Positions 2,582 through 48,818 of a DNA stretch of 50,709 bases are shown one piece after another. The notes beneath the pieces are model-generated. The model did not search any database, was not told the DNA's origin, and saw nothing but the letters and a program-made list of their open reading frames with translations. Positions within the stretch are counted from its first letter, which is position 1; each line of letters opens with the position of its first letter. The DNA is from Rhizobiaceae bacterium (GTDB lineage: Bacteria; Pseudomonadota; Alphaproteobacteria; Rhizobiales; Rhizobiaceae): contig JAHBYY010000028.1 of NCBI GenBank assembly GCA_019635715.1, positions 1 through 50,709 of the forward strand. Reading direction: 5' to 3'. The position numbers were made by a program, and so were the translations under genes.

Positions 2582-2648
2582 GCCGCCGCCGGAGACCCGC
2601 CGCGTGTCGACAGGCGACATCGAGTGGCGCGACACCCGGATAAATGAG
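2582..2648 (-). pseudogene. Remnant of a GlxA-type AraC regulator gene
   Basis: Two blocks match the intact regulator gene at 5841-6872. Positions 2582-2616 match 6585-6619 (sharing GCCGCCGCCGGAGACC and GTGTCGACAGGCG), and 2617-2648 match 6769-6800, which encodes the conserved LIYPGVAPLDVA stretch. The two blocks are joined directly here, so about 149 bp present in the intact gene are deleted, and nothing downstream of the N-terminal quarter remains. It sits where the intact copy sits relative to the second RTX gene, that is, divergent and just upstream. This is the decayed regulator of a duplicated regulator-RTX unit. Confidence 0.7.
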
Positions 2649-2726
2649 CGTGGCATCAGTCGCGAAGCTGTCGCGCCACCGGGCCGCTCTTCTCCAGTTG
2701 CAGGACGGCTTCGCATTCGGCGACGG

Positions 2727-2758
2727 ATTCGGACAAAATGCGATCATTTTCGGCCAAA
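2727..2758. promoter_or_regulatory. Direct-repeat operator candidate upstream of RTX gene 1
   Basis: Two copies of a TTTCGGmCAAA-like motif (ATTCGGACAAA ending at 2737 and TTTCGGCCAAA ending at 2758) are repeated 21 bp apart, two helical turns, which suits AraC-family proteins. The same pair with the same spacing occurs upstream of RTX gene 2 (6894-6925), and flanking sequence such as CTTCCGCAATC is also shared. It is probably bound by the GlxA-type regulator encoded at 5841-6872. The rest of the gap 1995-2952 holds the NrdR box, the regulator remnant and no credible gene. Confidence 0.5.
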
Positions 2759-2952
2759 TCGCGGGCTCGCGTCCGGCGCCCGCTTCCGCAATCCGCGACG
2801 ATCGGGTTTGCTTCGCGGTACCCGTGATCGGCAACGGCGGAGCTTTGTCCGGCTCCGCACGAGGCGATGACGATACCGGGCGCAGGTCGGATGATGGTGA
2901 GCCGCCGCCGACCATCGGTTTGGCGGATCGGCACCAGAAGGAGGGCTATCCT

Positions 2953-11014: not shown

Positions 11015-11420
11015 GCCGTCACCGTAGCCAGGCTGCGCGGCTGGACCGCGAGCATTCCGGATCGGGGCGTTCCATCGTCTTGCCTGCGAGGGGAACCAGG
11101 GTCGAGTTGCGCCTGGAAAACCGTGACGGCCCGCCCCGGCCGGTGGCCGCGCCCATCCTCCACATGAGGGCCCGCCAAGATTGCGGGCGACGGTCGCCTC
11201 GCCATGATCTCCCCGCCGAGGCGGTTGCACCGTCTTCTTCGAAGAGCGCGAAGAACATCGCGGCCAACGTCAAATTAACACCATTGCCAGAAGCGGGCGC
11301 TTCTATAGAACATTGCTTCCGGCGGACGCAACTCAGGCCGGCGGGTACTTGCGGTCCAAGCAAGGCCGGCAGTTCCGGTGTGCGCGTCCTTTCGATCGAC
11401 GGTGCTTTGGAGGGAAAGTA
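11015..11420. other. Intergenic region between RTX genes 2 and 3
   Basis: This 406-bp gap carries a short trailer related to that of RTX gene 1 (from 11123) and no credible gene. A near-perfect 14-bp palindrome, GAAGCGGGCGCTTC, lies at 11290-11303, followed by TATAGAA; it may mark a promoter or operator for RTX gene 3. The TTTCGGmCAAA direct repeats of genes 1 and 2 are absent, so gene 3 is probably regulated differently. Confidence 0.4.
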
Positions 11421-14400
11421 ATGGCGATCAATGTCAAACTCGTCGATTCCGAAGGTTTCGAGTGGGATTTTCTCTCCGGACTTGATCCCGCCGCGTCGTT
11501 CGGGAAAGGGCTCGGCGTCTTCGACGGTCAGAACGACGTGTTCGACAGCGGCCTGGTCGTCAGCGTCGGCGGCAACGGCGTCGATCCCCAGACCCATTCG
11601 CTCGACTTCGGCGGCCGGGAGATCAACACCATTCCCGTCATCGTGCAGGCCGGTATCGCCGCGACGCGATCGATCCTCGTCTCGGATGCCTCGATCTCGC
11701 CCGTCGGTTTCGCCCGCTTCCTCGACAGCTTCACCAATACGAGCAAGACGGACCAGACCATCACCGTCACCATGTCCAGCAATTCCGGCGCGGACCAGGC
11801 GACCGCGATCCAGGCGTCGAGCAGCGGCGATACGCTGCTGACGGCCGCCGATGTCGGCTTCGTCGTCGACGACGCCAATACTACGGGTGCGGATACGTCG
11901 GTCGGCTTTGCCTATGGCGACGGCAACATGCTGCTGCCGTCGAGCGCGACGATCACGAACGGCGATCTTATCACCGTCCAGCACACTTTCACGCTGAAGG
12001 CGGGCGAGACCAAGAGCCTGCTCAGCTTCGCGGTGCAGAACAACACGGCGGCCTCCTCGATCGCCGATTACACCAAGTTCACGCGGTCGCTAAACGATAT
12101 GCGCGCCGACAACTATCTCGCCGGCCTCAGCGAGAAGGAGATCAGCCAGATCCAGAACTACGCGTATATCGGCGGCCCGTTCGGCACCGGGCCGCTCGGC
12201 CTGACTCACCTGACCGACGGCGAGGGCAACCGCTGGGGCGTCAACAACAACCGCATGGGCGTGCAGACGCTGGACAGCGACGTGCTGCGGGATCTCAACC
12301 CGGGCGCGGTGCTGCTCCAGAACCTCATGACCAACGGGACGATGACGATCGCCGAGGACGGGCAGGAGGCGACCTACACCGGCAGCTTCCTATTGCGAGA
12401 CGGCGCCTATTCGGTGATGGCCTCTCCGGAGGAGGGCTTCATCCGGGTGATGCTGCGCATCGACTACAGAAACCCGTTCGAGAGCGGAAGCTTCGGGGGC
12501 GTCTACGGCCTCCAGGCTCTCCTGGCCAGCGCGCAGACCCTGGTCGCCGACCGCAACGTCGACGGCAGCGAGGGCAACGGCGTGCTGGGCCTCGGCGACG
12601 GCGGCGTCGTCATCGACGACAGCGTCTCCGGCAGCGGCGGCACGCGCCCGGCGCTCACCCTCGTATTCGGCGACACCTCGAAGATCGACGCCCAGGCCGA
12701 CAACGACACCGAGGAGCAGGTCTCGCTCACCGGCAATACATTCTCCGCGACGGACGGCCCACAGATGCTTCCGAATCCCGGAGACACGTTCGGCCTGCTC
12801 TATTTCGTCGCCGTGAACGACAACGGCCTCGACGCGATCGCCGACCTCGATCGGCTGATCCGGCCGGACTACAAGGCGCTGGCCGGCCTTTCCGCCTTCG
12901 AGGTTTCCAAGATCAGGAACTTCAACCTGACGGAGTCCGACCGCCTGCTGACCACGGACGGCAATGGCGACGACAACACGCTCCAGGGCGACTACTGGGG
13001 CGACCTGATGAACGGCGGCGACGGCGACGACACGCTGTCCGGCCTCGGTTCCGACGACGTGCTCAACGGCAACGACGGCAACGACATCCTGCTCGGCGGC
13101 ATCAGCAACGACCGCCTGTTCGGCGGCTTCGGCAACGACCGTCTCGACGGCGGCACAGGCGACGATCTGATGCAGGGCGACCAGGGCGACGACACCTTCA
13201 TCGTCGACAGCGCCGGAGACAGGATCATCGACGCGCCCGGCCAGGGCACGCTCGACTGGGTCAAGACATCCGTCAGCTACGATCTGCGAAACGCCAAGGG
13301 CGGCGGCGATCCGCTCGAGATCGAAAAGCTCAGCACCAGCAACGACAAGGGCACCAGCAACATCAACCTGACAGGCAATGAATTCGCGCAGACGATCATC
13401 GGCAATGACGGCAAGAACACGATCGACGGCCGGGGCGGCGGAGACCGGCTGGAGGGCCGCGGCGGCGACGACACTTATTTCGTCCACGACGCGAATGACG
13501 TGGTGATCGAGGCGGTCGGCGGGGACGACGACGTCGTCGCCGTGGCCGTGGGCGCCAGCATAACCGCCTACGCGCTCGCCGCCGGCCAGGAGATCGAGCT
13601 GCTGCAGGTGCACGCGTTCGGCGAAAACATCGCCATGGACCTTACCGGCAACGAGTTCAGCCAGAGGCTCTACGGCAGCGAGGGAAAGAACGTGCTCGAC
13701 GGCGGCGGCGGCGGCGACGTTCTGGAAGGCAATGGCGGCGACGACACCTACATCGTCAATTCCATCAATGACGTGATCGTGGAAACGAGTACCGGGGGCG
13801 CCAACGACACGGTGCTGACCAAGGTCACCTTCGATCTCCTGGAAGGCGTCTACATCGAGACCTTCAGCGCCTTCGACGCGAAGTCGATCGGCGCCATCAA
13901 CCTCTACGGCAACACGCTGGCGCAGCAGATCACCGGCAATGCAGGCGCCAACATCATCTCCGACGGCGGCAAGGGCGCCGCCGACGTGCTCAAGGGTCTG
14001 GGCGGCGACGACACCTACCGTGTCTACAACAGCGGCGACACGATCGTCGAAGGCGTCGACGAAGGGGCCAACGATACGGTGCTGACCAATGTCAGCTTCG
14101 ACCTGCTCGAAGGCGTTTACATCGAGACTTTTGGCGCGCTGAACCAGAAATCGACGGCGTCGCTCAACCTCTATGGCAACACGCTGGCCCAGGAAATCAC
14201 CGGCAATGCCGGCAAGAACATCATCTCGGACGGCGGCAAGGGCGCCGCCGACGTGCTCAAGGGTCTCGCCGGCAACGACACCTACCGCGTCTACAATGCG
14301 GGCACCGTCGTCGTCGAAGGCGCCGGCCAGGGTTTGAAGGACACGGTGCAGGCCGCGGTCAGCTACACGCTGAAGGCGGGCGTCGAGGTCGAGGTGCTGA

Positions 14401-14906
14401 CCACCACCAGCGCTTCGGGCAAGGGCGCGCTCTCGCTCTACGGCAACGAGTTCGGCCAGACGATCACCGGCAACAAGGGCGCCAATGCGCTGCGCGGCTA
14501 TGACGGCGACGACACGATCAACGGCGGCGACGGCGCCGACAAGATCTCGGGCGGTCTCGGCAACGACACGCTGGCCGGCAATGCCGGGGCGGACACCTAT
14601 TATTTCAGCTACGCGCTGGACGAGATGACCAATGTCGACACGATCAAGGGCTTTTCCGGCATCGACCTGATCAGCCTGTCATCTTCGATCTTCAGCAAGG
14701 CCGGGCCGGCCGGCAACCTGGCGGCGTCGGCCTTCGTCGCCAATGTCGACGGCAAGGCGGCCGACGCCTCGGACCGCATCATCTACGAGACCGACACCGG
14801 CATCCTGCGCTACGACCCGGACGGCACCGGCGCGGCTGCGGCGATCACCTTCGCGATCATGGACGGGTTGCCGTCGATGAATGCCGGGGACTTCGTCATC
14901 GCCTGA
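11421..14906 (+). CDS. RTX calcium-binding protein 3, type I secretion substrate
   Basis: Predicted secreted protein of 1161 aa. ATG at 11421 is chosen over upstream starts because GGAGGG precedes it and the product starts MAINVKLVDSEGF. Residues 1 to about 510 form a region unlike proteins 1 and 2, with no recognised domain; two related segments around KEISQIQNYAYIGG and FEVSKIRNFNLTE suggest an internal duplication. RTX motifs begin near 520 (GGDGDDTLSGLGSDD, GGTGDDLM), two 89-aa modules span about 826-1003, and the 159-aa tail ends DFVIA. The tail has diverged slightly from that of proteins 1 and 2. It ends 7 bp before the convergent Nudix gene. Confidence 0.86.
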   Translation: MAINVKLVDSEGFEWDFLSGLDPAASFGKGLGVFDGQNDVFDSGLVVSVGGNGVDPQTHSLDFGGREINTIPVIVQAGIAATRSILVSDASISPVGFARFLDSFTNTSKTDQTITVTMSSNSGADQATAIQASSSGDTLLTAADVGFVVDDANTTGADTSVGFAYGDGNMLLPSSATITNGDLITVQHTFTLKAGETKSLLSFAVQNNTAASSIADYTKFTRSLNDMRADNYLAGLSEKEISQIQNYAYIGGPFGTGPLGLTHLTDGEGNRWGVNNNRMGVQTLDSDVLRDLNPGAVLLQNLMTNGTMTIAEDGQEATYTGSFLLRDGAYSVMASPEEGFIRVMLRIDYRNPFESGSFGGVYGLQALLASAQTLVADRNVDGSEGNGVLGLGDGGVVIDDSVSGSGGTRPALTLVFGDTSKIDAQADNDTEEQVSLTGNTFSATDGPQMLPNPGDTFGLLYFVAVNDNGLDAIADLDRLIRPDYKALAGLSAFEVSKIRNFNLTESDRLLTTDGNGDDNTLQGDYWGDLMNGGDGDDTLSGLGSDDVLNGNDGNDILLGGISNDRLFGGFGNDRLDGGTGDDLMQGDQGDDTFIVDSAGDRIIDAPGQGTLDWVKTSVSYDLRNAKGGGDPLEIEKLSTSNDKGTSNINLTGNEFAQTIIGNDGKNTIDGRGGGDRLEGRGGDDTYFVHDANDVVIEAVGGDDDVVAVAVGASITAYALAAGQEIELLQVHAFGENIAMDLTGNEFSQRLYGSEGKNVLDGGGGGDVLEGNGGDDTYIVNSINDVIVETSTGGANDTVLTKVTFDLLEGVYIETFSAFDAKSIGAINLYGNTLAQQITGNAGANIISDGGKGAADVLKGLGGDDTYRVYNSGDTIVEGVDEGANDTVLTNVSFDLLEGVYIETFGALNQKSTASLNLYGNTLAQEITGNAGKNIISDGGKGAADVLKGLAGNDTYRVYNAGTVVVEGAGQGLKDTVQAAVSYTLKAGVEVEVLTTTSASGKGALSLYGNEFGQTITGNKGANALRGYDGDDTINGGDGADKISGGLGNDTLAGNAGADTYYFSYALDEMTNVDTIKGFSGIDLISLSSSIFSKAGPAGNLAASAFVANVDGKAADASDRIIYETDTGILRYDPDGTGAAAAITFAIMDGLPSMNAGDFVIA
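13896..14429 (+). repeat. Two tandem 267-bp (89-aa) modules in RTX gene 3
   Basis: Module starts at 13896 and 14163, ending at 14429, give 2 x 267 bp. They are highly similar to the modules in RTX genes 1 and 2. The second copy is almost the same as the last module of gene 1. Confidence 0.85.
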
Positions 14907-23560: not shown

Positions 23561-23569
23561 CGGCTTGCC

Positions 23570-23603
23570 AGGCCCGCCCGCGCATCGGTGCGCGGGCGGG
23601 CCT
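23570..23603 (+). terminator. Intercistronic hairpin between binding protein and ATPase genes
   Basis: Two perfect 15-nt arms, AGGCCCGCCCGCGCA and its complement, enclose the loop TCGG ten bases after the binding-protein stop. There is no T tract, so it most likely causes partial termination or protects the 3' end of the binding-protein mRNA, giving excess binding protein over the membrane parts. Confidence 0.6.
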
Positions 23604-23663
23604 GCTGTCGACCGCCTTCCCGATTTCCATGTCCAAACTCTCAACTGTTTTCCGGATGTTCCA

Positions 23664-25145
23664 GTGATCCGCCTGTCGGCGATTTCGAAAAGCTTTCCCG
23701 GTGTGAAGGCGCTTCAGGACGTGTCCTTCGAGGCGCGCGCCGGCGAGGTTCATGCGTTGCTCGGTGAAAACGGCAGCGGCAAGTCCACGCTGACCAAGAT
23801 CATCGGGGGCCTGTACCAGCCGGACGCCGGCAAGATCGAATATGACGGCGCGGTGGCGCGGTGGTCGCGGACCCGCGACGCAAGCGATGCCGGCATCCAC
23901 GTGATCTACCAGGAGCACGTGATGTTCCAGGATCTCACGGTCGCCGAGAACGTGTTCATCTCGGAGCAGCCGCTCAATCGCTTCGGATTTGTCGACTATG
24001 CGCAGATGGAACGCCGCGCCGCCGAGGCGCTGAAGCAGCTCGGCACCGACATCGACGTCAGGCGCCTGGTGAAGACGCTGTCGGTCGCCGAGCAGCAGAT
24101 GGTCGAGATCGCCAAGGCGCTGGTCGGCACGATCAAGGTGCTGATCCTGGATGAGCCGACGGCGGTGATTGCCGGCCGCGAAGTGGAGCTCCTGTTCGAA
24201 CGCATCGCGATGTTGCGCTCGCGCGGCGTGGCGGTGATCTACATCTCGCACCGCCTCGAGGAGATTTTTCGCATTGCCGACCGGGTCACCGTTCTGAAGG
24301 ACGGCAGGCTGGTCGGCACCTGCCCGATCGCCGAGGTGGACCGGGAGAAGCTGGTGTCGATGATGGTCGGGCGCAAGCTGTCCGACTATTTCCCGCCGAA
24401 GACGCCCGTCCGCCCGGACGCGCCGATCGTGCTGGAGGCCAAGGACGTCAACGTCGGATCCCGGGTTCGCAACGCCAGCTTCGCCTTGCGCGCCGGCGAA
24501 ATCGTCGGCCTGTCCGGCATGGTGGGGTCGGGTCGAACGGAACTCGCCATGGCGGTCTTTGGCGGACTGCCGATGTCCGGCGGCCGCGTGACCATCGACG
24601 GTACCGCCTACGAACGGACGGCGCCGATGCAGTCGATCCGCAACGGTGTCGGCATGCTGACCGAGGACCGCAAGGCCGAAGGTCTGATGCTCAACATGAA
24701 CATCGCCCAAAACATCAGCGCCGCCTCGCTTCAGGAGATCGCCTCGGGACTGTTCCTCGACAGCCGCCGCGAGCTGGATATCGCGGTCCGCGAGATGGAC
24801 GCTTTCAAGGTCGCGGCGCCCGGCCCGATGACCAAGGTGCTCGGTCTCTCCGGCGGCAATCAGCAGAAGGTGCTGTTCGGTCGCTGGGTCCATGCCTGCA
24901 AGAAGGTGCTGCTGCTCGACGAGCCCACGCGTGGCGTCGATGTCGGCGCCAAGGCGGAGATTTATCGGCTGATCCGAACCTTGGCCGACCAGGGCTTGGC
25001 GATCCTCGTGATCAGCTCCGAACTGCCCGAGATCATCGGTCTGTCCAATCGCGTGCTGGTGATGCGGGACGGCGAAATCCGCGGCGAACTTCTCGGTGAC
25101 GATATCGGCGAGGAGAACATCATGGCCTTGGCCACGCACCACTGA
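23664..25145 (+). CDS. Sugar ABC transporter ATP-binding protein (CUT2)
   Basis: Cytoplasmic ATPase of 493 aa with two fused nucleotide-binding domains, as in RbsA/XylG/AraG. Domain 1 has GENGSGKS (34-41), a signature variant LSVAEQQMVEIAKAL and Walker B LILDEPT. Domain 2 has a degenerate Walker A (GMVGSGRTEL), the signature LSGGNQQ (395-401) and LLLDEPTRGVDVG, the usual pattern for this subfamily. The frame has no ATG near the domain start, so GTG at 23664 (MIRLSAISKSFPG) is taken; no strong ribosome site is seen. It drives the two permeases that follow. Confidence 0.92.
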   Translation: MIRLSAISKSFPGVKALQDVSFEARAGEVHALLGENGSGKSTLTKIIGGLYQPDAGKIEYDGAVARWSRTRDASDAGIHVIYQEHVMFQDLTVAENVFISEQPLNRFGFVDYAQMERRAAEALKQLGTDIDVRRLVKTLSVAEQQMVEIAKALVGTIKVLILDEPTAVIAGREVELLFERIAMLRSRGVAVIYISHRLEEIFRIADRVTVLKDGRLVGTCPIAEVDREKLVSMMVGRKLSDYFPPKTPVRPDAPIVLEAKDVNVGSRVRNASFALRAGEIVGLSGMVGSGRTELAMAVFGGLPMSGGRVTIDGTAYERTAPMQSIRNGVGMLTEDRKAEGLMLNMNIAQNISAASLQEIASGLFLDSRRELDIAVREMDAFKVAAPGPMTKVLGLSGGNQQKVLFGRWVHACKKVLLLDEPTRGVDVGAKAEIYRLIRTLADQGLAILVISSELPEIIGLSNRVLVMRDGEIRGELLGDDIGEENIMALATHH

Positions 25146-35917: not shown

Positions 35918-36331
35918 ATGACATATTCCGACGACACCCACGCGGCCGGCCCATCGCGAGACCGGCCTGAAGCCAAGCCATTTTCCATACGCCTGACGGA
36001 CAAAGAGAAGCAGCGGCTGCTGGCTCGCGCCGGTCGCCTGCCGTTGGGAACCTACATTCGGGATCTCATTCTCAGGGGTGAAGCCCAGACGACGCGGCGC
36101 CGGTGGACGACACCCTTGAAGGGTCAGACGGCGCTGGCCGGAGTACTGGCAGCACTCGGCCAATCGCGTATCGCGAACAATCTCAATCAGCTCGCGAAGG
36201 CCGCGAACATGGGTGCTCTGCCGGTGACCGAGGAAACCGAGGCGGAGATTTCTGAGGCCTGCATCGCTGTCAGCGCCATGCGCCGGGATTTGATTGTCGC
36301 GCTCGGATTGAACGAGAGCGGGCGTGCGTGA
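35918..36331 (+). CDS. mobC: MobC-like plasmid mobilisation protein
   Basis: Relaxosome accessory protein of 137 aa that helps the relaxase open oriT. FSIRLTDKEKQRLLARAG looks like a ribbon-helix-helix DNA-binding start, and GQSRIANNLNQLAKAANMG is the conserved MobC/NikA-type C-terminal helix. GAGGAGG sits six bases before ATG at 35918. Its stop overlaps the relaxase start (GTGA), showing tight coupling. Confidence 0.85.
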   Translation: MTYSDDTHAAGPSRDRPEAKPFSIRLTDKEKQRLLARAGRLPLGTYIRDLILRGEAQTTRRRWTTPLKGQTALAGVLAALGQSRIANNLNQLAKAANMGALPVTEETEAEISEACIAVSAMRRDLIVALGLNESGRA

Positions 36332-37620
36332 TTCTGAAAGGAAGCAAACGCGGCGGCGCTGCCGATCTCTCGCGCCATCTTCTTAAGGCTGAAAACGAGC
36401 ACGTTGAGGTGCATGAGATACGGGGCTTCGTCGCCGACAATGTGCCGGATGCGTTCAAGGAAGCCCAGGCGATAAGCCTCGGCACGAAATGCCGCAAGTT
36501 TCTGTTCTCACTCGCGCTTAGTCCGCCGGAAACCGAAAGCGTCCCCGTCCGCATGTTCGAAGAGGCGATCGGCGCGATCGAAGAGAAACTCGGTCTGCAA
36601 GGACAGCCGCGCGTGGTCATCTTTCATGAAAAGGAGGGACGCCGTCATGCGCATTGCGTCTGGTCGCGCATCGATGCCCAGACCATGACGGCAATCGACC
36701 AGCCGCATTTCAAGCTGAAGCTTGGTGATATCTCGCGACAGCTCTATCTGGAACACGGCTGGAAGATGCCAGAAGGCCTCATAGATCCGGCCTTGCGCAA
36801 TCCGCTCAATTTTGACCGCTATGAGTGGTTTCAGGCAAAGCGCACAGGAAACGATCCGCGCGCCATCAAGGCTGCTTTCCACCAGTGTTGGGCAGCGTCC
36901 GATTCCGGCAAAGCGTTCCGGCAAGCGCTGCAATCGCGCGGCTACTACCTCGCGCGCGGCGACCGTCGCGCCGTTGTCGCTGTCGACATGCACGGAGAGG
37001 TCTATGCAGTAGCGCGCTGGGTGGGCGTTAAATCGAAAGACATCGTCGATCGCGTTGCCGACATCGACAGCCTTCCTTCCGTTTCTGAGGTGAAGGCCGA
37101 AATCTCGCGCCTTGTGCGTGAAAAGCTCGCCGGCTTTCTCGGCTCTATCACCGACGAGTTCGCCAAGGCGGCAGGGGAGCTGGAAGCGCGGCGGATTGCG
37201 ATGGTCGGTCGACACCGCACAGCAAGGTCAGACCTTCAATCGGCACAGGAGATCCGCTGGGCCGCTGAGGCTCGAATCCGGGCGGGGCGTTTTCGTAAGG
37301 GCCTTCCAGGACTTTGGGATCGCGTCATCGGAAAGCATGCGAAGCTGCGCCAGGAAAACGAAACTGAAGTCAAAGCCGCCGAGCTTCGCGACGCTGGGCA
37401 GAAGCAGGAGTTGATTGGCAGGCAGCTCAGAGAACGCCAGCTCCTCCAGCGGGAAATCAAATTCGCCCGACGCGCTCATCTGCATACGATCACGAGATTG
37501 CACAAGGACATCATGGCATTTCGGCGGGTGGATGATTCGATTGGCGTCGAAGTTGCCGATTTTGCAACGTCTTCAGAGGTGCGGCGCGGCCGGAATAGGC
37601 GCCATGTTTCGGGACCGTGA
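36328..37620 (+). CDS. Relaxase (MobA/VirD2-type, three-histidine)
   Basis: DNA-nicking transesterase of 430 aa that starts conjugal mobilisation. The metal site H100-x6-H107-x-H109 (HEKEGRRHAHCVW) is intact. The N-terminal GSKRGGAADLSRHLL is typical of alphaproteobacterial relaxases with a catalytic tyrosine or equivalent that cannot be placed with confidence here. The start is GTG at 36328, overlapping the mobC stop. The C-terminal 150 residues are basic and helical. No coupling protein or type IV secretion genes are in the window, so the element is at most mobilisable on this evidence. Confidence 0.88.
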   Translation: MILKGSKRGGAADLSRHLLKAENEHVEVHEIRGFVADNVPDAFKEAQAISLGTKCRKFLFSLALSPPETESVPVRMFEEAIGAIEEKLGLQGQPRVVIFHEKEGRRHAHCVWSRIDAQTMTAIDQPHFKLKLGDISRQLYLEHGWKMPEGLIDPALRNPLNFDRYEWFQAKRTGNDPRAIKAAFHQCWAASDSGKAFRQALQSRGYYLARGDRRAVVAVDMHGEVYAVARWVGVKSKDIVDRVADIDSLPSVSEVKAEISRLVREKLAGFLGSITDEFAKAAGELEARRIAMVGRHRTARSDLQSAQEIRWAAEARIRAGRFRKGLPGLWDRVIGKHAKLRQENETEVKAAELRDAGQKQELIGRQLRERQLLQREIKFARRAHLHTITRLHKDIMAFRRVDDSIGVEVADFATSSEVRRGRNRRHVSGP

Positions 37621-37766: not shown

Positions 37767-40040
37767 TTAATGAGATGTCCCTGCACGCTCTACATCAAGG
37801 TGGCGTAGACGTACTGCTACCGCCGGGATCTGATCGATTTCCAGGCGCTCGCGTACAGTAACAAGAGTCATCAAATCCCATGAAAGAAACCCATCGAATT
37901 TTGCGACATTCGGTTTGGACACCCCGGACATCAACGCATGCGTTGACGGAATGTCGCCTTCGGCAAATGCTTTCGCATAGCGGGCGACGCCGTCGACGTC
38001 ACACTCTTGCAATTCGATCGCGAAGGCCAATGGTGTCGTCTTGAACTCTCGGCTCTGGAAAGCGAGAGCGAGCGTAGTGAGCTTCCTTGTTCCTACCCAG
38101 GGAAATGCGATGACGCCATCGCCATATGGAATAATTCGCCGCTGATGGAGTTCAAGTTCCCGGAAGACCTGCCGCGCGCTCGTGAGCAGTTCGCCGGCTA
38201 CCAAGTCGATGTAGGGGTATGCATCCTCCGTGGACAATATCTCACGCATCTTGTTGACGATGTAGTCATGGACACTACCTCCGTTGCCACTGAATCGAGG
38301 AGGCTTTCCACCCTTGTTCGGCCGGACAGAGATCACCCTGGTTGCGTCATCGACCGTCAAAACGAGCCATCGACGCCCCGCGAAGATCAATGTCTCGCCA
38401 TTCTTGATAGCTGAATCGAGGGGGTAATTCCCGAGAACGCGCGCCTCGTGCATAATCCTGTATTCCCGCTCTGTCGCGAATACAGGATAGAACTCGTGGG
38501 TCTCCGTGATTTTCTCGCCAGTCTCCCCGATCATAAGCAGGCCATCCGGTGATTGTTCGATAAGCTTGTTCTCTGATGACGCCATGCACCTCAGAAGGTC
38601 TGCGAAGAGCGTCTTGTCGACTGTCCTGAACGGACCGCGTTCACATAGAGTTCGATAGGCGGCCTGCGGCCTGATGCCAGATTTCTGGAGGATGAGAGCA
38701 AGAATTTGGTGGAGGAGCGTGGATAGGTGCAGGCCAGAGATATCAGGCGGCTCGCACCAGCCATCCTTGAGGCATTCGATCATGGCGATCGACTGGATTA
38801 GCCCGAGGTTGAGACGATCGAGGGGATGTTGGCCGCGGCCGGGACCTCTCTCAATCACGAAAAGCCGCATGATCGCCGGGTTGCCAGCGCGCCGACCCGA
38901 TCTGCCGAGGCGTTGGCGAAGGGACGAGACGGCAAATCCGGGACCTATCTGGGCGACGCTTTCCACGTCGCCGATGTCGATTCCGAGTTCAAGTGTGGTC
39001 GTCGCGACGGCGGTTGTCGGCCTCGGATCATCTCTTAGCCGAATCTCGATGTCCTCGCGTTCCGCCCGCGACAAGCTACCGTGATGCGGAAAAAACTCGT
39101 TCGGACGATTGCCGTCTTCGCACATCGTACGCAGGCGGTCGGCGTAGAGTTCAACACTTGCGCGGGAGCCAGCAAAAAGAAGATTCCGTTTGCCTCGGAG
39201 AAATCGAAAAAGATCGTCTGCAACACGGTAAGGCACCCCGTGGCTCTCGGTACCTTCGGCGTCATTCTCAACCGGCTCGTCGGTATCCTTGGGCCTCTCC
39301 TCATTCGCGAGATAGCCTCTTATTTGAAGCTTGAGGCCGTTGCCTTCGTCGTTGCCGTTTACGAGGAAGACCGAATGGCCTTCACCCGGCCTCAACGCCT
39401 CGGCGGCGAGTCTCATATCGCCAAGCGTGGCCGATAGTCCGATGCGATCAATCCGCTCCCGCCCGCATTCAACCTCTATTCTGTTCAAGATCGATTGGAG
39501 TTGCATCCCGCGCTCCGTCCCGATGAACGCGTGAAGTTCGTCGATGACTACCGCCTCAAGCGCGGAGAACAGGAAGCGAATTTCTCTCCCGCGTCGGACG
39601 AGCAGTGCTTCGAGCGACTCCGGCGTGATCAGCACAATTCCACTGGGATTCTTCCGCGCCCGTGCCTTGGCGTCCGCCGACACGTCGCCATGCCATTTGT
39701 ACAGGCCTATGTCGCAAGCGTCGCAAAGGCTTTCGAGTCGGCGGTGTTGATCGTTTATGAGCGCCTTGAGGGGGCTTACGTAAAGAATGGCAAAGCCGTC
39801 ACGGTTTTGTTTCGCTACGACGCGCGTCAAAAGCGGCAGCATTGCCGCCTCGGTCTTGCCTGCGGCGGTACGAGCGGAAACAACGACGTCCCCTCCCGAA
39901 AGGATCGCGGGGACGGCCTTCTCCTGTACATCCCGCAGTTTTTGCCATTTTTTTTGCCATATCCAGCGCTGAACAGGCTGAGCGAGGCGGTCAAATGCGG
40001 AAGGTTGCGAGTTCATCGTCCGATTCTTCGGTTTCCGCAT
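37767..40040 (-). CDS. sngC: Lhr-type DEAD/DEAH-box helicase, Shango system SngC
   Basis: Superfamily 2 helicase of 757 aa, last gene of a three-gene defence operon. Motif I is ARTAAGKTEA, motif II VIDELHAF, motif III LSATLGD and motif VI RQRLGRSGRR, with an Lhr-like C-terminal domain. It matches the DEAD/DEAH helicase of the Shango anti-phage system; BREX type 2 also has an Lhr-like helicase, but no other BREX gene is present. ATG at 40040 overlaps the ATPase gene by 50 bp; ATG at 40016 (MNSQPSAFDRL) is equally plausible. Neither has a strong ribosome site, which fits translational coupling. Confidence 0.85.
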   Translation of the reverse strand: MRKPKNRTMNSQPSAFDRLAQPVQRWIWQKKWQKLRDVQEKAVPAILSGGDVVVSARTAAGKTEAAMLPLLTRVVAKQNRDGFAILYVSPLKALINDQHRRLESLCDACDIGLYKWHGDVSADAKARARKNPSGIVLITPESLEALLVRRGREIRFLFSALEAVVIDELHAFIGTERGMQLQSILNRIEVECGRERIDRIGLSATLGDMRLAAEALRPGEGHSVFLVNGNDEGNGLKLQIRGYLANEERPKDTDEPVENDAEGTESHGVPYRVADDLFRFLRGKRNLLFAGSRASVELYADRLRTMCEDGNRPNEFFPHHGSLSRAEREDIEIRLRDDPRPTTAVATTTLELGIDIGDVESVAQIGPGFAVSSLRQRLGRSGRRAGNPAIMRLFVIERGPGRGQHPLDRLNLGLIQSIAMIECLKDGWCEPPDISGLHLSTLLHQILALILQKSGIRPQAAYRTLCERGPFRTVDKTLFADLLRCMASSENKLIEQSPDGLLMIGETGEKITETHEFYPVFATEREYRIMHEARVLGNYPLDSAIKNGETLIFAGRRWLVLTVDDATRVISVRPNKGGKPPRFSGNGGSVHDYIVNKMREILSTEDAYPYIDLVAGELLTSARQVFRELELHQRRIIPYGDGVIAFPWVGTRKLTTLALAFQSREFKTTPLAFAIELQECDVDGVARYAKAFAEGDIPSTHALMSGVSKPNVAKFDGFLSWDLMTLVTVRERLEIDQIPAVAVRLRHLDVERAGTSH

Positions 40041-41313
40041 TCACGTCGTGGTCCTGCGCCCCCTGTCGATCCTCGACAACGTCGACTTGTTCCAGAAAAT
40101 CCTTCCAGCTGACGCCGGGGTTTTGTTCGAGGACCGCCATCAGATCGACGAATGCCTTAACCGTGTTTCGCGGGGTCCTGAAGTAGGAATCTCCGATGGT
40201 GCTCGAGCAGTGCTCCATGAACGCGACCAGCGCTTCGTCGGGAACCAGGTGATTCTCCGCGCTACCGGCCGCGAATACGTCCCGCAGTCGTTCGAGGAGA
40301 TGGTAAAGCTCCTCTGGCGTCAGGCTCGGCAGATTTAGGACTGGACCTGAATAATCCGCAATGCCGTTCACGGCGAACGTGTTTTCCGCAAGTCGGCTTT
40401 GAAGGGCTTGGTAGGAGTACAGACCGCGCCGGGTATCGAGGAGAAACTCCGGGGTGCCGCTCATAATAAAACCGATGCCCTCTGTCGTTCCTTGGAGGAC
40501 ATCGTTCAGGATGCGGAGAATCTGCTCGTAGTTTTGGTTGCGCGCCTGCGAACTCTGAAGCTTGTAGAGATTTACCAGTTCGTCGAGGCAGACGAGCAGG
40601 CCGCCAAAGCCCGCAACCCGCACAAAGCGTGCGAGCAGTCTGAGGCCGTCGTAAAACGAGGTGTCGTCGATGATCGTGCGGACGCCGAGGTCATGACGTG
40701 CCTCCGTCTTGGTGGTGTACTCGCCCCGTAACCAGCGAAGAGCGGAATCCTGAAGGTTTCCGTTGCCTTCCTCGTACCCGCGAGCATATGCGGCGATCAC
40801 GGAAGCAAAGTCGTAGCCGCCGACCATTTCGCGAATATCGCCAAGGCCCTCCTTGACGGCATTTTCCACGGGAATGCCTTTGGATGCGGCGTTTTCCGTT
40901 GCCTTCTGAATATAGCTCTCAAGAATGTTTCGGAGGGCACCCCCGTCCGGAGCGGTTCGGGTCGAGAGGCTTCGAGCGAGTTCCGCGTATAGGGTGCGCG
41001 CCTGGCCATTCGATGCGTGGATGCGGCGGTCGGGCGAGAGGTCGGCCTGGCAGACAGCGAGCTTGCTTTGTAGGGCGATCTGTCGAACGAGGAATAGGAA
41101 GAAGGTTTTCCCTGCGCCATAGGCTCCGATCACGAACCTGATGCTGGCTCCACCGTCGCCGACCCGCCGGATGTCGCGGATCACGGCGTCGATCTCGCGC
41201 TGTCGTCCAACCTGGATGTGCTGCAGGCCAAGCCGCGGTACGACGCCAGCCCGCAGTGCGCTGATGATGGTGTCACGGTCACGCGGCCGTATGGCGGGTG
41301 GCTTTGTGGTCAT
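39991..41313 (-). CDS. sngB: P-loop ATPase (BrxD-like), Shango system SngB
   Basis: ATP-binding protein of 440 aa of the DUF2791/BrxD kind. Walker A is GAYGAGKTFFL (about residues 63-73) and Walker B is LLVCLDELV, with a sensor-like FIMSGTPEFLLD and an arginine-rich RGLYSYQALQSRL segment that suggest an AAA+ fold. It overlaps the TerB gene by ATGA at its start and the helicase gene at its end. Partner order TerB, ATPase, helicase is that of Shango. It probably powers or gates the helicase during phage infection. Confidence 0.85.
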   Translation of the reverse strand: MTTKPPAIRPRDRDTIISALRAGVVPRLGLQHIQVGRQREIDAVIRDIRRVGDGGASIRFVIGAYGAGKTFFLFLVRQIALQSKLAVCQADLSPDRRIHASNGQARTLYAELARSLSTRTAPDGGALRNILESYIQKATENAASKGIPVENAVKEGLGDIREMVGGYDFASVIAAYARGYEEGNGNLQDSALRWLRGEYTTKTEARHDLGVRTIIDDTSFYDGLRLLARFVRVAGFGGLLVCLDELVNLYKLQSSQARNQNYEQILRILNDVLQGTTEGIGFIMSGTPEFLLDTRRGLYSYQALQSRLAENTFAVNGIADYSGPVLNLPSLTPEELYHLLERLRDVFAAGSAENHLVPDEALVAFMEHCSSTIGDSYFRTPRNTVKAFVDLMAVLEQNPGVSWKDFLEQVDVVEDRQGAQDHDVNAETEESDDELATFRI

Positions 41314-44300
41314 GCTGGCTTGCCTTCCATACCGTCTGCTGAAATAGCCATTTCCAGCGAGGGGAGCAGGTGCAGGCAGATCTCGACCGGATCATCACCC
41401 TCGATGATGAGTTCGTTAAAGCGATCCATCGACCAGTCATTGATGGCCTCGCGGGCGGCGCCCGGCATCAAACCTGCGTCGCGGGCCAAATGGTCGAAAT
41501 CCGCGGCGGCCCACGATGCCTGTAGGCGCAGCTCATTCAGGAGCGCGCCGTAGCGTTGCTCAAGGCCTTCAAAAGTTCCACTTTCAGGCGCATCTGTGTT
41601 CACCTCAACCAGGATCGGCTCGGAGGCGCCTGCATCGTCGTCGGCAAATATGTCGGCGAGCACGTTGGCGGTCACACTCGTTTCCGAGCGGATGCTGTGA
41701 AGCTTTGATTGGTCGATCCGGGTCGCGGGTTTGGCGGTGGGAATTCCTGTTGAGGTGCCGTTGGCAGACGAACCAGCCGTGCTAACCGGTGAACTCGTCC
41801 CGGAGTGCAGACGGTCGTAGAGAGCCTGATTGGCGAGACCCATCCGCTTGAAAATGAGCTCCAGCTTTCGGATTTCAGCGGCGTGGAGATTGCCATCAGC
41901 GGATGCCACCGAGATAAGCTCGTCAGCCACCGTCATTTTAGCCTCGGCGCTTACGTCTTTCAAACGCTTCGTCCAATCCTCAAGCCGATCGGGATAAACT
42001 TCGTTCAGTCGCAATTCGGCGCGCAGGCGGCTGCGCTCATTTGCATTCAACGAAGACTCGCGCTCGATGCGCTGGATCAATGTATCCCGCTCGCTGTCAT
42101 CAAAATGGCCGTCCGCATGGCCAATGATGAGTCCGAGCATCACGGCAAGCTGAATAGAACGATAACGATCAGTTGGCTCGGCGGTCGTTTCGGCGGCGAT
42201 TGCAAATATAAGCGCCGGGTCGCTGCCCGAGAGAGCTTTCGTGGCAAATGCTGGATCGAACGTCACACCGAATCCGAAAGCTGCCAAGAGTTGCGATACT
42301 TCGCGGAGCTTTGATTTGGTGGGAGGTATTCCGACATCGATTCCGGCAAGGTGGGCGACATTGCTCACCGTGGTAAGGGTCGCCCCGCGTGACATCTCTG
42401 CGAATTGATCGAGCGGGGAGCCTTCAAGCAAGCCCGCCTGCTGCGCGCGAAGTGCCTTTGGCAGTTTGGAGACGGCGATGAAGTTCGGCGTCAAGCCCGG
42501 CAGTCTGCCGAGCGCACGACTGTAATCGTCCAGCGCGTCGGAACAAGCCTCGAAGATGCGCCGAGCCATGCCTATGGGTTGGGAGTGATGTGCAATATCG
42601 GGGATCTTGCCGCCGAGGATTTCGATATCGACCTCGAAAGACCCGCTGCATGCCTTGTAGTGTTTCTGCAACGGCTTCGCTCTTGCGGCTTTGTAGCGGA
42701 AACCCGACGGATGCTCATTCAACAATTGCTGGGCAAAGAGCTGTCGCATGAGCTCGGGCGCACGTTTCGCGGGTGTACGCGCCCGCGTCTCTGGGTGCGT
42801 CATCGCAAATCGATAAAGCAAGTCCGGTTCCATTATCCGGTCGTCACGGACACAAATGCCCAAGGCTATCCTTATGGCCGTTGGGACCTCGTAGCCATTC
42901 GGCTCGATGCGAGCCAGGAAATGCGCCGACGGTTCGCCACTCCTGAGTTCGACGGCGGTCAGTAACTCCATCGAGTAGCGGTTGAATGAACTGTTGCCAC
43001 CGTAAATCTCGAGGAGGCGACGAACCTCAGCTGTTACGACGGGGGCATCCGGCGCGTTCCGCTCAAGCATAAGGCGGCGTTCGAGGCCATAAAAATAGAG
43101 AAAAACATATCCGATGTAAGTGTTCGGATCGGACCGTTCTCCCGCCAGCCATTCCAGATAGCTTCGACGCGCCTCCGGACTGATCGATGAGTACGATGGC
43201 CAGTAACCCATCGTGCGGCCCTCACGATCTCCCCATTGTGCGACGTGGAGTCCGGGGTTGATGAGACAATTCTCGGCTTCGTGGCGACCTCCGTCCTTGC
43301 CAAGAGATTTGCCAACGTAGATCAGCCCTTGCGATATGGTGATGCCAGCAATGGTAGTCGGGGAATCTTTTTCCCTCCATCCTGTCGACGAGGAGGTGAC
43401 GGCCAGAGTCCTTGTAGGGGTGTTGGGCTGCTGTCGCTGGGCTTCGTCATGCCGTCGCCGTGAAGCCTCGGCATTCTCAGTAACCCATTGCTTGACCGCC
43501 CCGTTGTGTCCCGCCAACGATATCGCCGGATTAACTTCCGCCGTCGGTTCCTTCCATCCGGTAGATGAGGGTGTAGAGGCCTGCCGCTCTGAGTGGATGT
43601 CAAAGTAACGTTTCTGCGCTTCGTCGTGCCGTTGCTTTGAAGCCTCGGCGTTGTCAGTGATCCATTGCTTGACCGCCGCGGCATGTGTTGACAAGGATGT
43701 CACCTGCTTGTCATCGCCCGCGGGGCTTCGTTCTTCTATTTCGGTGAGCGCGTCGTTGGGAGGTGCGTAAGGTCGGCTTGTGTTTCTCCCCGCGTTTTGT
43801 TTCACCCAATCCATGACCGCGGAATTGTGTGCCGCCAGGGATTCTGGGATTGACTGCACTGCCGGTCTTTGCATTTCCGTGGCTGTAAGGTCATCGACAC
43901 GAGGTTCAGTTGGCTGGGCAAGAACCCGCGATACATCTGGTGGGATCGTCGCTGGAGCGGGGTCTACTGAACGAGGCGATAATACAGTTAGAGTATTTGA
44001 TTTTCTCTTGCGAATAAAGAGGATTAACATCGCAAAAACGATCAAAGCGACGATATGGAGTGTAAATGGCTCACCTAACGTCTCTTCAGGGATTGACGAT
44101 GAAACTTTCGCGCCGACTCCGACCTCCGGCGTCTTTGTCATCGCGTTCGGTGTGATCTCGGTGGTCGTCGAAATGCCGGCGATCGATTTCTCTGGCACCG
44201 CATCGATTTTCGAAGGGACTTCTCCCGTCTTCTCATCCGATGCGGTCTCGGCGGAAGGTGCTGGATTCACATGATGATCGATCGGTTTGTTCTCGATCTC

Positions 44301-44594
44301 ATCACGCAACATATTCGGTTCGTCTTGAAGCTGTGGACTTTCCAAGAAAAGAGCGGCAATTGTGGCGTCGTCGGGCTTGCCGGTTGGCGCCAACCCATTG
44401 GCTTTTTGGAATTCGCGGAGGGCATTTGCAGACTTTTTTCCCCAAAGGCCGTCGATTGATCCAGGGCTGAACCCTTTGCTGCTCAAAGCCTGCTGAATGT
44501 CCCTAGGAGTTCGTTCGATAGCTTGCGCTGGCGCTCCTACCAAGCAGGCCAGGACAATCAACCTCAGGATCATCAGAGCATTGTGCAGCTTCAA
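41310..44594 (-). CDS. sngA: TerB-domain protein with peptidoglycan-binding and membrane segments, Shango system SngA
   Basis: Protein of about 1094 aa. The N-terminus has a signal peptide (LRLIVLACLVGAPAQA), a PG_binding_1 domain (IQQALSSKGFSPGSIDGLWG, about 30-90), a linker, and a transmembrane helix (HIVALIVFAMLILFIRKRK, about 178-198). Three related segments follow (AVMDWVKQNAG, AVKQWITDNAEAS, AVKQWVTENAEAS). Then come a TerB-N domain (GITISQGLIYVGKSLG), TerB (AVMLGLIIGHADGHFDDSER, VASADGNLHAAE) and TerB-C at the end. The expected topology is wall-binding domain in the periplasm, TerB parts in the cytoplasm. TTG at 44594 is chosen because GGAGG lies seven bases before it; ATG at 44645 or 44573 are alternatives. 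Known Shango operons begin with a TerB protein. Confidence 0.82.
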   Translation of the reverse strand: MKLHNALMILRLIVLACLVGAPAQAIERTPRDIQQALSSKGFSPGSIDGLWGKKSANALREFQKANGLAPTGKPDDATIAALFLESPQLQDEPNMLRDEIENKPIDHHVNPAPSAETASDEKTGEVPSKIDAVPEKSIAGISTTTEITPNAMTKTPEVGVGAKVSSSIPEETLGEPFTLHIVALIVFAMLILFIRKRKSNTLTVLSPRSVDPAPATIPPDVSRVLAQPTEPRVDDLTATEMQRPAVQSIPESLAAHNSAVMDWVKQNAGRNTSRPYAPPNDALTEIEERSPAGDDKQVTSLSTHAAAVKQWITDNAEASKQRHDEAQKRYFDIHSERQASTPSSTGWKEPTAEVNPAISLAGHNGAVKQWVTENAEASRRRHDEAQRQQPNTPTRTLAVTSSSTGWREKDSPTTIAGITISQGLIYVGKSLGKDGGRHEAENCLINPGLHVAQWGDREGRTMGYWPSYSSISPEARRSYLEWLAGERSDPNTYIGYVFLYFYGLERRLMLERNAPDAPVVTAEVRRLLEIYGGNSSFNRYSMELLTAVELRSGEPSAHFLARIEPNGYEVPTAIRIALGICVRDDRIMEPDLLYRFAMTHPETRARTPAKRAPELMRQLFAQQLLNEHPSGFRYKAARAKPLQKHYKACSGSFEVDIEILGGKIPDIAHHSQPIGMARRIFEACSDALDDYSRALGRLPGLTPNFIAVSKLPKALRAQQAGLLEGSPLDQFAEMSRGATLTTVSNVAHLAGIDVGIPPTKSKLREVSQLLAAFGFGVTFDPAFATKALSGSDPALIFAIAAETTAEPTDRYRSIQLAVMLGLIIGHADGHFDDSERDTLIQRIERESSLNANERSRLRAELRLNEVYPDRLEDWTKRLKDVSAEAKMTVADELISVASADGNLHAAEIRKLELIFKRMGLANQALYDRLHSGTSSPVSTAGSSANGTSTGIPTAKPATRIDQSKLHSIRSETSVTANVLADIFADDDAGASEPILVEVNTDAPESGTFEGLEQRYGALLNELRLQASWAAADFDHLARDAGLMPGAAREAINDWSMDRFNELIIEGDDPVEICLHLLPSLEMAISADGMEGKPA

Positions 44595-44922
44595 TTTCGC
44601 TCCTCCCCCGTGTGGGCCAATATACACGGAGAGCGCACGACGCAAAGGCGCTCATGCGGTCGTCGCTCCAATTGCACGAGAAGAGGAGAGAAAATTGCCC
44701 CCGATCGCGGGCGGGAACCCGGGTCGTGAGAGGTGGTCATTTCGCGGCCAGCTCTTACTGATAGGTGGGGATTGGAGGCTGGGCATGTTGGGGACTCAAG
44801 CAGGTCAGCATTCTTGCCCTTGCTCTCCCGGCCAGCCTCCTTCCGGCCTCGCTGCCGACTTGCAACAGCATGCCGTAGGATGGACTCACGTGCTGAGTTT
44901 TTACACGGCACCGTTGAGCAAA
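44595..44922. other. Non-coding gap between ArdC gene and Shango operon
   Basis: No credible gene is seen. The GGGGGAGGAG ribosome site of the TerB gene lies at its lower edge, and the region must hold the Shango promoter on the minus strand. No clear -35/-10 pair or operator could be assigned by eye. Confidence 0.35.
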
Positions 44923-44938
44923 AGCACCTCACGGTGCT
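44923..44938 (-). terminator. Intrinsic terminator overlapping the ArdC stop codon
   Basis: On the minus strand AGCACC-GTGA-GGTGCT forms a six-bp stem whose loop contains the TGA stop of the ArdC gene, followed by TTTT. It would separate ArdC transcription from the Shango operon. The stem is short, so its efficiency is uncertain. Confidence 0.45.
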
Positions 44939-45837
44939 GCCCTTAGGCTGGGCTCGATGAGCCAGTTCGCGGCTTGGCTCGCCTTGGAAGCTGCCGTGAA
45001 GATGGCGCGCTTGTCGTCCTTCAAGACTTTCAGCCAGTTTGCGATGTACTGAGCGTGATCGGCGCGAGGTTCGAGCGTGATGGCAAGATTGCTGCAAAGG
45101 AAAGCTGCGCCGAGTTCGGCGATGAGTTCTTCGACAGCGTAGGCTTCGGTCCCGAAGCGGCCCGAGAGGTCGCGGTCGAGGCGGGTCTTGCTGCCAGACC
45201 AGTGGACGAGTTCGTGACAGAGAGTGCTGTAGAATCCTTCGGCGGGCGTGGTGGTTTCGGTGCCGGTGAAGCGACGGCGTTCCGGCATGCGGATCAGGTC
45301 GGCTGAGGGGATGTAGCAGGCGCGATCGCCGGTTTCCTCGATTGTCGCGCCCGTGGCCTTGGCGAACTGTTCGGCCCGCTCGATCCGATCGAAGGTGGGT
45401 GCGTCGGGTAAAGCTGCGACAGTCTCGGCCGCGAAGTTGTCGACCTGGGCGGCGTTGAAGACGTGGCTGGCGCGGGCCATCAGGCGTTCGCCGTGCTCGG
45501 TCTCCCCGGTTTCTTCGTTGGTCTGCTCGATATCGAGTTTCTTGTAGAAGACGACAAGCGAGGATTTCTCGCCGCGTCGGACTTGGGCTCCGCGCTCCCG
45601 CCACTGACGATACGTGCCCCAGAGGTTCGAAGGATAGTCGGACGCCAGCGCCGAAACCCAGAGCGAGAGAATGTTGACGCCGTTGTAGGGCTTTGCGGGG
45701 GCGATGTTGACGGGGCGGGCGAAGCTGCCGCCCTTGCTCCTGATCCAAGGGAGACGGAATTCTCCTGCGGTTTCGATGCTTGCGACGATGCGGTTGGTGA
45801 TTTCCTGATGGACATCGAACTTCTGTTTGGCGGACAT
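44929..45837 (-). CDS. ardC: ArdC family anti-restriction protein
   Basis: Protein of 302 aa with an N-terminal single-stranded-DNA-binding ArdC domain (about 8-130; WIRSKGGSFARPVNI, GVNILSLW, WGTYRQW) and a C-terminal zincin-like metallopeptidase domain with H208-E209-L-V-H212 in CHELVHWSG and a third ligand likely in VEELIAELGAAFL. ArdC proteins protect incoming DNA from restriction when mobile elements enter a new host. ATG at 45837 follows GGAGAG; the frame is open upstream without protein-like features. Its presence supports the mobile nature of this region. The roughly 270 bp ahead of it are non-coding. Confidence 0.92.
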   Translation of the reverse strand: MSAKQKFDVHQEITNRIVASIETAGEFRLPWIRSKGGSFARPVNIAPAKPYNGVNILSLWVSALASDYPSNLWGTYRQWRERGAQVRRGEKSSLVVFYKKLDIEQTNEETGETEHGERLMARASHVFNAAQVDNFAAETVAALPDAPTFDRIERAEQFAKATGATIEETGDRACYIPSADLIRMPERRRFTGTETTTPAEGFYSTLCHELVHWSGSKTRLDRDLSGRFGTEAYAVEELIAELGAAFLCSNLAITLEPRADHAQYIANWLKVLKDDKRAIFTAASKASQAANWLIEPSLRAAP

Positions 45838-46107
45838 GGTGTCTCTCCCTTCGCCTGTGCTTTCCGGCCGCGACCGTCGCGGCCTGATGGCGTCCGAAGA
45901 GGCGGGAGGAGAGAGGCCCTGCACCCCGAGCAAAGCGAGCGGGCGGGCGAAGCGGAAAGACGGCGCATGCCGTTGCAGGGAGGAAAGCCTTCCGCCAGGA
46001 ACGCCAGCAAGAAGGCCGCAACGGGCGCGGCTTATCAGGTCAGGGAATGGAGAGACATTGCTCCGCCGAGAAAATCGGTCGGCATGACTAAACCGGGGCG
46101 TCGCAAC

Positions 46108-48084: not shown

Positions 48085-48251
48085 AAACGTCCGTTTTTGT
48101 TTATATTTGTGTAATGCCCATCATTTTTGGTAAGATATTATAGAAATTGAGGATTTCCGGCCACTTCCACCATTGGGACGCTGGCAGAGCCTCGGAGAGC
48201 AAAAGGGGACGATTGTGTGACGGCTCGATAACCCATAACCGATTGATTTGT
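48085..48251. other. AT-rich divergent promoter region before the recombinase
   Basis: The 167-bp stretch contains an unusually AT-rich tract (for example TTTTTGTTTATATTTGTGTA and TAAGATATTATAGAA). It separates the divergent exported-protein and recombinase genes, and would be the natural place for promoters and, if the recombinase is a resolvase, its res site. No convincing paired recombination sites could be defined. Confidence 0.35.
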
Positions 48252-48818
48252 ATGAGAAAGATTGCATACGCCCGTGTTTCGACGCCCGACCAGCGTCACG
48301 ACCGCCAGATTGAGGGCGTGAAGGCCCTCTGCGACGAACTCCATATCGAGACCTTGTCGGCCTGCGCGGCCCGGCGACCAGTGTACGACCGGGTGCTCGC
48401 CGCGCTCCAGCCGGGCGATATGCTGGTGGTGTGGGATCTGGACCGGGCGTTCCGCTCCGTGGTCGATGCGCTGACCGAGGCGGAGAAGCTGCGAGGGCGC
48501 GGCGTCCACTTCCAGATTGCCAATCTCCATATCGACACCTCCACGCCTGCGGGGATTTTCGTCTACACGATGCTCTCGGCGCTGGCCGAGTTCGAACGCA
48601 GGACGCTGCCCCAGCGGACGAAGGAGGGGCTTGAAGCCGCGCGCCGTCGCGGCGCCAGAATAGGCAGGCCGCCGGTGATGAGCGATGACGAACTCCGCGC
48701 GGCGCGAACCCTGATTGACCTGCCGGGAAACACAAAAGCCAGCGTCGCACGTGCGATGAAGGTGCCTCGCTGGACGCTGGCGCGGTCGCTCAAACGACGG
48801 GAAACGGCGGAGACCTGA
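48252..48818 (+). CDS. Serine recombinase (resolvase/invertase family)
   Basis: Site-specific recombinase of 188 aa. The catalytic serine is S10 in KIAYARVSTPDQ; the helix ALAEFERRTLPQRTKEGLEAA and RRGARIGRPP link to a C-terminal helix-turn-helix (KASVARAMKVPRWTLARSL). The usual DRLGRS motif reads DRAFRS, a modest deviation. ATG at 48252 is chosen since the family N-terminus begins there. Such enzymes resolve cointegrates or plasmid dimers, or invert segments; which applies here is unclear. Confidence 0.9.
   Translation: MRKIAYARVSTPDQRHDRQIEGVKALCDELHIETLSACAARRPVYDRVLAALQPGDMLVVWDLDRAFRSVVDALTEAEKLRGRGVHFQIANLHIDTSTPAGIFVYTMLSALAEFERRTLPQRTKEGLEAARRRGARIGRPPVMSDDELRAARTLIDLPGNTKASVARAMKVPRWTLARSLKRRETAET

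Follow-up and report, generated by a model that had tools for sequence, protein, structure and literature searches.

Zorya, Kiwa, and SNIPE are grouped as membrane-localised defence systems in the part of a review considered here (PMC12904381; for SNIPE also PMC13190303). For Zorya, the passages available describe peptidoglycan binding by ZorB as needed for defence and propose wall deformation or damage as the trigger (PMC11890865), and ZorD is counted among the defence helicases (PMC12278908). A further point of comparison is BREX type 2, in which the proposed task of BrxD is to load BrxHI onto target DNA or to activate it there (PMC12839542). The Shango system of PA14 gives modest protection on plates and strong protection in liquid culture, with phages inhibited in P. 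aeruginosa (PMC10250203); the passages of that paper considered here call SngA TerB-like, mention no anchor, and give no Shango mechanism. Across the literature passages covered, no explanation of how Shango detects invaders was found, and no description of a PG domain or a membrane anchor in SngA was found among the matches listed. The founding work on TerB domains and Shango, reportedly a 2012 TerB survey and Millman 2022, lay outside this scope.

The DNA analysed here (the window) is a stretch of 50,709 nucleotides from a Rhizobiaceae bacterium (GCA_019635715.1, JAHBYY010000028.1) that makes up one whole contig. Three overlapping genes follow one another on its minus strand, SngA first (Table 1), and because PADLOC names them SngA, SngB, and SngC, the operon is a complete Shango system. 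The first product matches the PADLOC SngA model (E 6.6e-77) and contains TerB_N, TerB, and TerB_C by Pfam, bearing out the original prediction that this protein is the SngA of Shango. A TerB-domain SngA is found in one operon with the SngB ATPase and the SngC helicase, and the locus shares its three genes, their order, and their domains with the Shango systems of PA14 and E. coli. The alignment to the PADLOC SngA model begins only at residue 381 of a 1111-aa reading of the frame and leaves the earlier part outside the model. SngB, a relative of ORC-Cdc6-type BrxD, and SngC are by PADLOC related to the BrxD-BrxHI dyad of BREX type 2, from which Shango differs in having a TerB protein instead of the BREX core.

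Relatives were taken from a scan of 84,980 species genomes, and this set leans toward the window because it comprises the 80 best-scoring of at least 520. SngB lies downstream in 76/80 and SngC in 74/80 of these loci. Both are present in 17 of the 18 loci whose SngA carries the PG domain described below (PG type), the remaining one (L057) stopping 278 bases past SngA. No extra partner gene was found for the PG-type operons, since neighbour-gene clusters present in at least 4 loci hold at most 3/18 PG-type loci. One locus (L094) continues for 5312 bases beyond SngA, yet neither SngB nor SngC was found in the expected places. Around the window operon lie genes for a MobA/VirD2-like relaxase, an ArdC antirestriction protein, and a resolvase (window positions 36328-37620, 44929-45933, and 48147-48818), so the operon may sit on a mobile element. 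Elsewhere on the plus strand, three consecutive genes (2644-5727, 7115-11014, and 11313-14906) encode large proteins with RTX calcium-binding repeats, and a 526-aa ORF (23565-25145) that matches PADLOC mads_3 (3.6e-33) and mads_8 (1.3e-16) is a possible second defence gene.

The window SngA begins with a signal peptide and a PG_binding_1 domain, which a long linker connects to a single transmembrane helix; three short helical repeats and then TerB_N, TerB, and TerB_C follow, and Pfam places PG_binding_1, TerB_N, TerB, and TerB_C in this order. The modules that had been predicted ahead of the TerB domains (signal peptide, PG domain, helix, and three repeats) were all recovered by sequence, Pfam, hydropathy, and the structure model. 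Signal peptides typically end in an AxA-type cleavage motif, here AQA. The PG domain scores 56.8 bits against a cut-off of 23, and its confidently modelled fold matches SltB3, CtpB, and SleB, on which grounds a chance match was rejected. PG_binding_1 is the name of a fold, and the SngA domain probably binds peptidoglycan. The model holds one helix between the PG domain and TerB, and under the positive-inside rule the RKRK following it predicts an N-terminus outside and a C-terminus inside. The whole SngA model gave no Foldseek match at E <= 0.001. In L058 and L140, about 100 extra residues with two cysteines, presumably exported, lie between the PG domain and the helix; Pfam found no family above cut-off in this segment of L058.

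Table 1. Features of the Shango operon and of SngA in the window (positions in the window; residues of the 1094-aa SngA).
Feature	Position	Strand	Details and evidence
SngA gene	41310..44594	-	1094 aa, TTG start; shares its last 4 nt with the start of SngB
SngB, BrxC/BrxD-type ATPase	39991..41313	-	PADLOC SngB 7.5e-174, BrxD 5.5e-53
SngC, DEAD-box helicase related to BrxHI	37767..40040	-	PADLOC SngC 2e-251, BrxHI/BrxHII 2.7e-123
Promoter-like CTTTGC - 17 nt - TATATT	44619..44647	-	ends 24 nt before the start codon
Shine-Dalgarno GGAGGAG	44600..44606	-	5 nt ahead of TTG
Signal peptide, residues 1-25	44520..44594	-	sequence, AxA-type cleavage motif (AQA); model helix 2-19
PG_binding_1 domain, residues 31-82	44349..44504	-	Pfam 2.6e-15; fold match; purifying selection
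Transmembrane helix, residues 178-197, then RKRK	44004..44063	-	hydropathy 2.63; helix in model
HN repeat 1 (SLAAHNSAV...), model helix 250-268	43791..43841	-	
HN repeat 2 (SLSTHAAAV...), model helix 301-338	43581..43697	-	
HN repeat 3 (SLAGHNGAV...), model helix 362-388	43431..43520	-	
TerB_N domain, residues 413-609	42768..43358	-	Pfam 3.6e-44
TerB domain, residues 817-923	41826..42146	-	Pfam
TerB_C domain, residues 951-1080	41355..41744	-	Pfam 1.6e-24

We read the HN repeat as a putative short interaction helix. Its strict pattern, [ST][ILVM]xx[HR][ND]xx[VI], catches two of the three repeats in the window, the middle one having HA for HN. The pattern occurs 21 times in the N-terminal regions of a set of 25 PG-type SngA proteins, against 0.18 expected from shuffles, and zero times in their cores, counts that are not an independent test because the pattern was drawn up after the sequences were viewed. 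The occurrences fall in 12 of the 25 proteins (thirteen have none), and the distant PG-type L069 has three. Among 73 SngA proteins scored as PG-free there are four occurrences (0.20 expected), all in L055, which is truncated and related to the PG type.

A membrane anchor is not peculiar to the window variant, as had been supposed. A hydrophobic segment before TerB_N, defined by hydropathy of at least 1.6 over 19 residues and not by a topology program, is present in 85/94 SngA proteins, E. coli included, and in 54/62 after removal of close copies; frames were read stop to stop for this count, and what was counted in PG-type proteins may be their signal peptide. The same cut-off is reached in 16/94 cores and in 11.25/94 shuffled N-termini. 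Nine proteins fall under it, five of them scoring 1.49-1.60 and looking like anchors. No anchor was found by hydropathy in L100, L112, L120, and L031 of this set, nor in L021, L022, L025, and L139 of the genome samples, which means that anchoring is no strict requirement. The sequence after the last helix is richer in K/R than that before it in 43/57 non-redundant proteins. The SngA of E. coli Shango (L126) begins with MELWIFIVAIYLIYILFFKKKK, a membrane-anchor-like segment (MELWIF...), and resembles the window protein in this start, but lacks the PG domain (by Pfam), the signal peptide, and the HN repeats.

The envelope modules vary among SngA proteins, comprising a single anchor, a hairpin (these two kinds assigned by eye), DUF805, or a signal peptide with PG domain and helix. 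An N-terminal DUF805 membrane domain replaces the simple anchor in sphingomonad SngA (by Pfam in L079 and L119, by sequence likeness in L083), and L090 and L094 were put with this kind only by length and hydropathy pattern. The original prediction is upheld as regards a Shango SngA with signal peptide, PG domain, helix, and repeats, but not as regards the anchor being its special feature; because the anchor is common in SngA, only the exported PG module marks the window variant.

To survey this module, an HMM was built from 13 unrelated PG domains, after one of 14 retrieved had been set aside for containing a stop. It matches 18 of the 80 relatives (best 80 of at least 520), and with the window and 14 other SngA proteins added and L060, cut at a contig end, left out, the PG type accounts for 22/94 in what is a window-biased set. 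Pfam agrees, finding the PG domain in 16/40 members of alignment A2. Of three evenly drawn genome samples, that of the order (397 genomes) yielded 20 matches in 19 genomes, including 3 fragments (L034, L039, and L142), with the PG domain in 7/17 readable SngA proteins, or 6/16 without the window; among these six, four (L131 and L133-L135) belong to a single genus, and L140 is probably the same record as L058, whose beginning it shares. The class sample (385 genomes, 6 of them with a total of 7 matches) and the phylum sample (398 genomes, 12 of them with a total of 14 matches) contain the PG domain only in the window's own SngA; in the phylum sample, the matches L034, L037, L038, and L039 are fragments with an unreadable N-terminus. 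The three samples have several loci in common. All PG-type proteins of named origin are from Alphaproteobacteria, and 0/13 SngA proteins from named organisms outside this class in the set of 94 have the domain. From these counts the PG domain is therefore a minority feature and alphaproteobacterial as far as seen, and most SngA proteins examined lack it, so the original prediction is not undone by an extension common to all homologues. A search for SngA in phages gave no match, and no relative was confirmed in viral contigs. DNA similar to a Klebsiella-plasmid SngA-SngB is present in 497/5426 complete E. coli genomes (438 over at least 80% of the length).

In the tree of TerB cores, 14 of the 15 members of one well-supported group are of the PG type, the fifteenth being the truncated L060, and four further PG-type sequences sit on deep branches. 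A single clade of PG-type sequences was not rejected with 11 of them among 30 (p 0.13) and was rejected with 13 among 38 (AU p 4.4e-5), both results coming from quick trees (LG+G4 without mixture) of sequences hand-chosen after earlier trees. The larger set includes L129 and L131, PG-type members of the order sample that are placed within a starred group of 11 whose other members are PG-free. As one clade is rejected, the module was gained or lost more than once; gain and loss are not distinguishable from these trees. The PG-type SngA of Mesorhizobium huakuii (L042:5194-9766) is interrupted by an IS256 transposase gene.

Our explanation as a whole, to which we give roughly even odds (about 0.5), is that a membrane- and wall-tied SngA would hold SngB and SngC and act on incoming DNA; the anatomy of SngA alone we rate above this, at more than even odds. 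SngA would be a single-pass inner-membrane protein whose N-terminus is exported by the signal peptide, with PG_binding_1 on a flexible linker of ~90 residues that would let it reach the peptidoglycan. The short repeated helices and the TerB_N/TerB/TerB_C body would lie in the cytoplasm, where the body may recruit the ATPase SngB and the SF2 helicase SngC and keep both under the membrane. A phage or conjugating plasmid piercing or pressing the wall would alter the wall contact of SngA, which would then present SngB, and SngB would load SngC onto the incoming DNA. By analogy with described systems, SngA would most likely tie SngB and SngC to the inner membrane and, in the window type, to the wall at DNA-entry sites.

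A close analogue is Zorya (ZorAB with ZorCD or ZorE), which in the passages available likewise has a membrane unit with a peptidoglycan-binding domain in the periplasm, together with an arm that targets DNA in the cytoplasm (PMC11890865, PMC12904381), whereas SngA has one helix and PG_binding_1 in place of the Pal-like domain of ZorB. The resemblance is a likeness of proposed working, not of membership. Membership of the window operon in Zorya was rejected, as neither SngA nor SngB matches ZorA or ZorB: no Zorya family is among the PADLOC matches of SngA (1) and SngB (2) at E up to 0.01, with 25 of the 59 SngC matches covered in this check. A search of SngA for a Pal/OmpA-like domain found no OmpA family at E up to 10, a range in which the HMMER filters drop most matches above 0.1. 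Kiwa and SNIPE share with the proposed Shango mechanism a membrane-placed defence at DNA entry, but use other proteins and effectors, and the passages considered mention no PG domain in either (PMC12904381, PMC13190303).

Were translation to start downstream of the helix, SngA would be cytosolic, and the annotated starts of L044 and E. coli L127 do fall past the PG domain, the anchor, or both in the open frame, so that the database copies of these two proteins look cytosolic, a warning that some database gene starts remove the SngA anchor. A downstream start was nevertheless rejected and is barely credible, given the promoter-like box and Shine-Dalgarno motif immediately before the signal peptide and the codon selection within the PG domain; the original prediction, which a start beyond the helix would have undone, gains from the same evidence. 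Before the PG domain, a script found a Shine-Dalgarno motif for just one ATG, GTG, or TTG, namely the originally assigned start, the TTG at 44594. In the scan of 18 sequences (the window and 17 loci), six orthologues (L046-L051) have a GTG with a GGGTGAGG-type motif directly before the signal peptide; the motif is weaker in L053, L054, and L102, lies only further upstream in L059 and L069, and was not found for L052, L056, L058, L061, and L099. The start of L045 could not be judged because a stop cuts its reading frame. A GTGTATA box ends 24-31 nt before the start in 10/10 sequences (window, L045-L052, and L061), and the scorer gave a promoter-like spacing of 17 nt in nine of the ten and of 16 nt in L046. 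Over nine orthologue pairs, dN/dS is 0.06-0.26 in the PG domain and 0.04-0.23 in TerB_N, and the PG domain is thus under purifying selection, like the core. For the linker, eight of these pairs give finite values, which lie at 0.38-0.91, and in a tenth pair (window vs. L045) the PG domain is saturated and the linker at 0.34. The signal peptide, with 27-28 codons, varies between 0.20 and 1.61, and the helix segment, with 23, is above 1 in four pairs; these values are not read as selection either way, because codons are few and hydrophobic residues interchange freely. The substitution rates therefore speak for translation of the extension. A functionless fusion, decaying or neutral, would fit the fast-evolving linkers and the in-frame stop inside the PG region (4990-5100) of L045, the closest relative (Shinella, 78% core identity), which has SngB and SngC downstream; it is very unlikely, however, in view of the low dN/dS of the PG domain, ten invariant columns among 11 aligned PG-type N-termini, and the recurrence of the extension in distant SngA proteins.

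The PG domain may be a static tether or a placement signal (growth zone, septum), with SngB and SngC detecting invader DNA in the cytoplasm in the manner of other helicase systems, a serious possibility that we nonetheless place on the unlikely side. The differing N-terminal membrane segments among SngA proteins suggest that the module may only localise, and outside Shango, too, these genomes commonly contain PG_binding_1-like matches, but a mere tether leaves a wall-contacting domain on a long linker in separate SngA groups unexplained. That the envelope variant targets conjugating plasmids and not phage, with the wall breach of a mating channel as trigger, seems quite unlikely to us. The window operon does lie between the relaxase gene and ArdC, and 542 of 680 plasmid records with an SngA-like match are predicted to be conjugative (450 are from Klebsiella and 144 from Salmonella, and the matches are mostly without confirmation as Shango); yet plasmid carriage tells where Shango travels, not what it stops, and the PA14 system inhibits phages according to the passages available (PMC10250203). 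We keep to a wall- and membrane-tied SngA that would hold SngB and SngC at DNA entry as the preferred reading.

The common membrane anchor of SngA points to a defence working at the cell envelope: a membrane anchor is predicted for the majority of SngA proteins examined, and a wall-binding domain was gained or lost more than once among them. A bolder and rather doubtful extension of this idea is that Shango is an envelope-mounted entry detector with interchangeable sensor modules (single helix, hairpin, DUF805, or wall-binding domain), in which the alphaproteobacterial PG type would be a motor-free counterpart of Zorya, wall deformation being read by the tethered PG domain and relayed across the membrane via the HN-repeat arm to TerB, SngB, and SngC. 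If SngA does work at the envelope as proposed, Shango would join Zorya, Kiwa, and SNIPE as a defence stationed at DNA entry.
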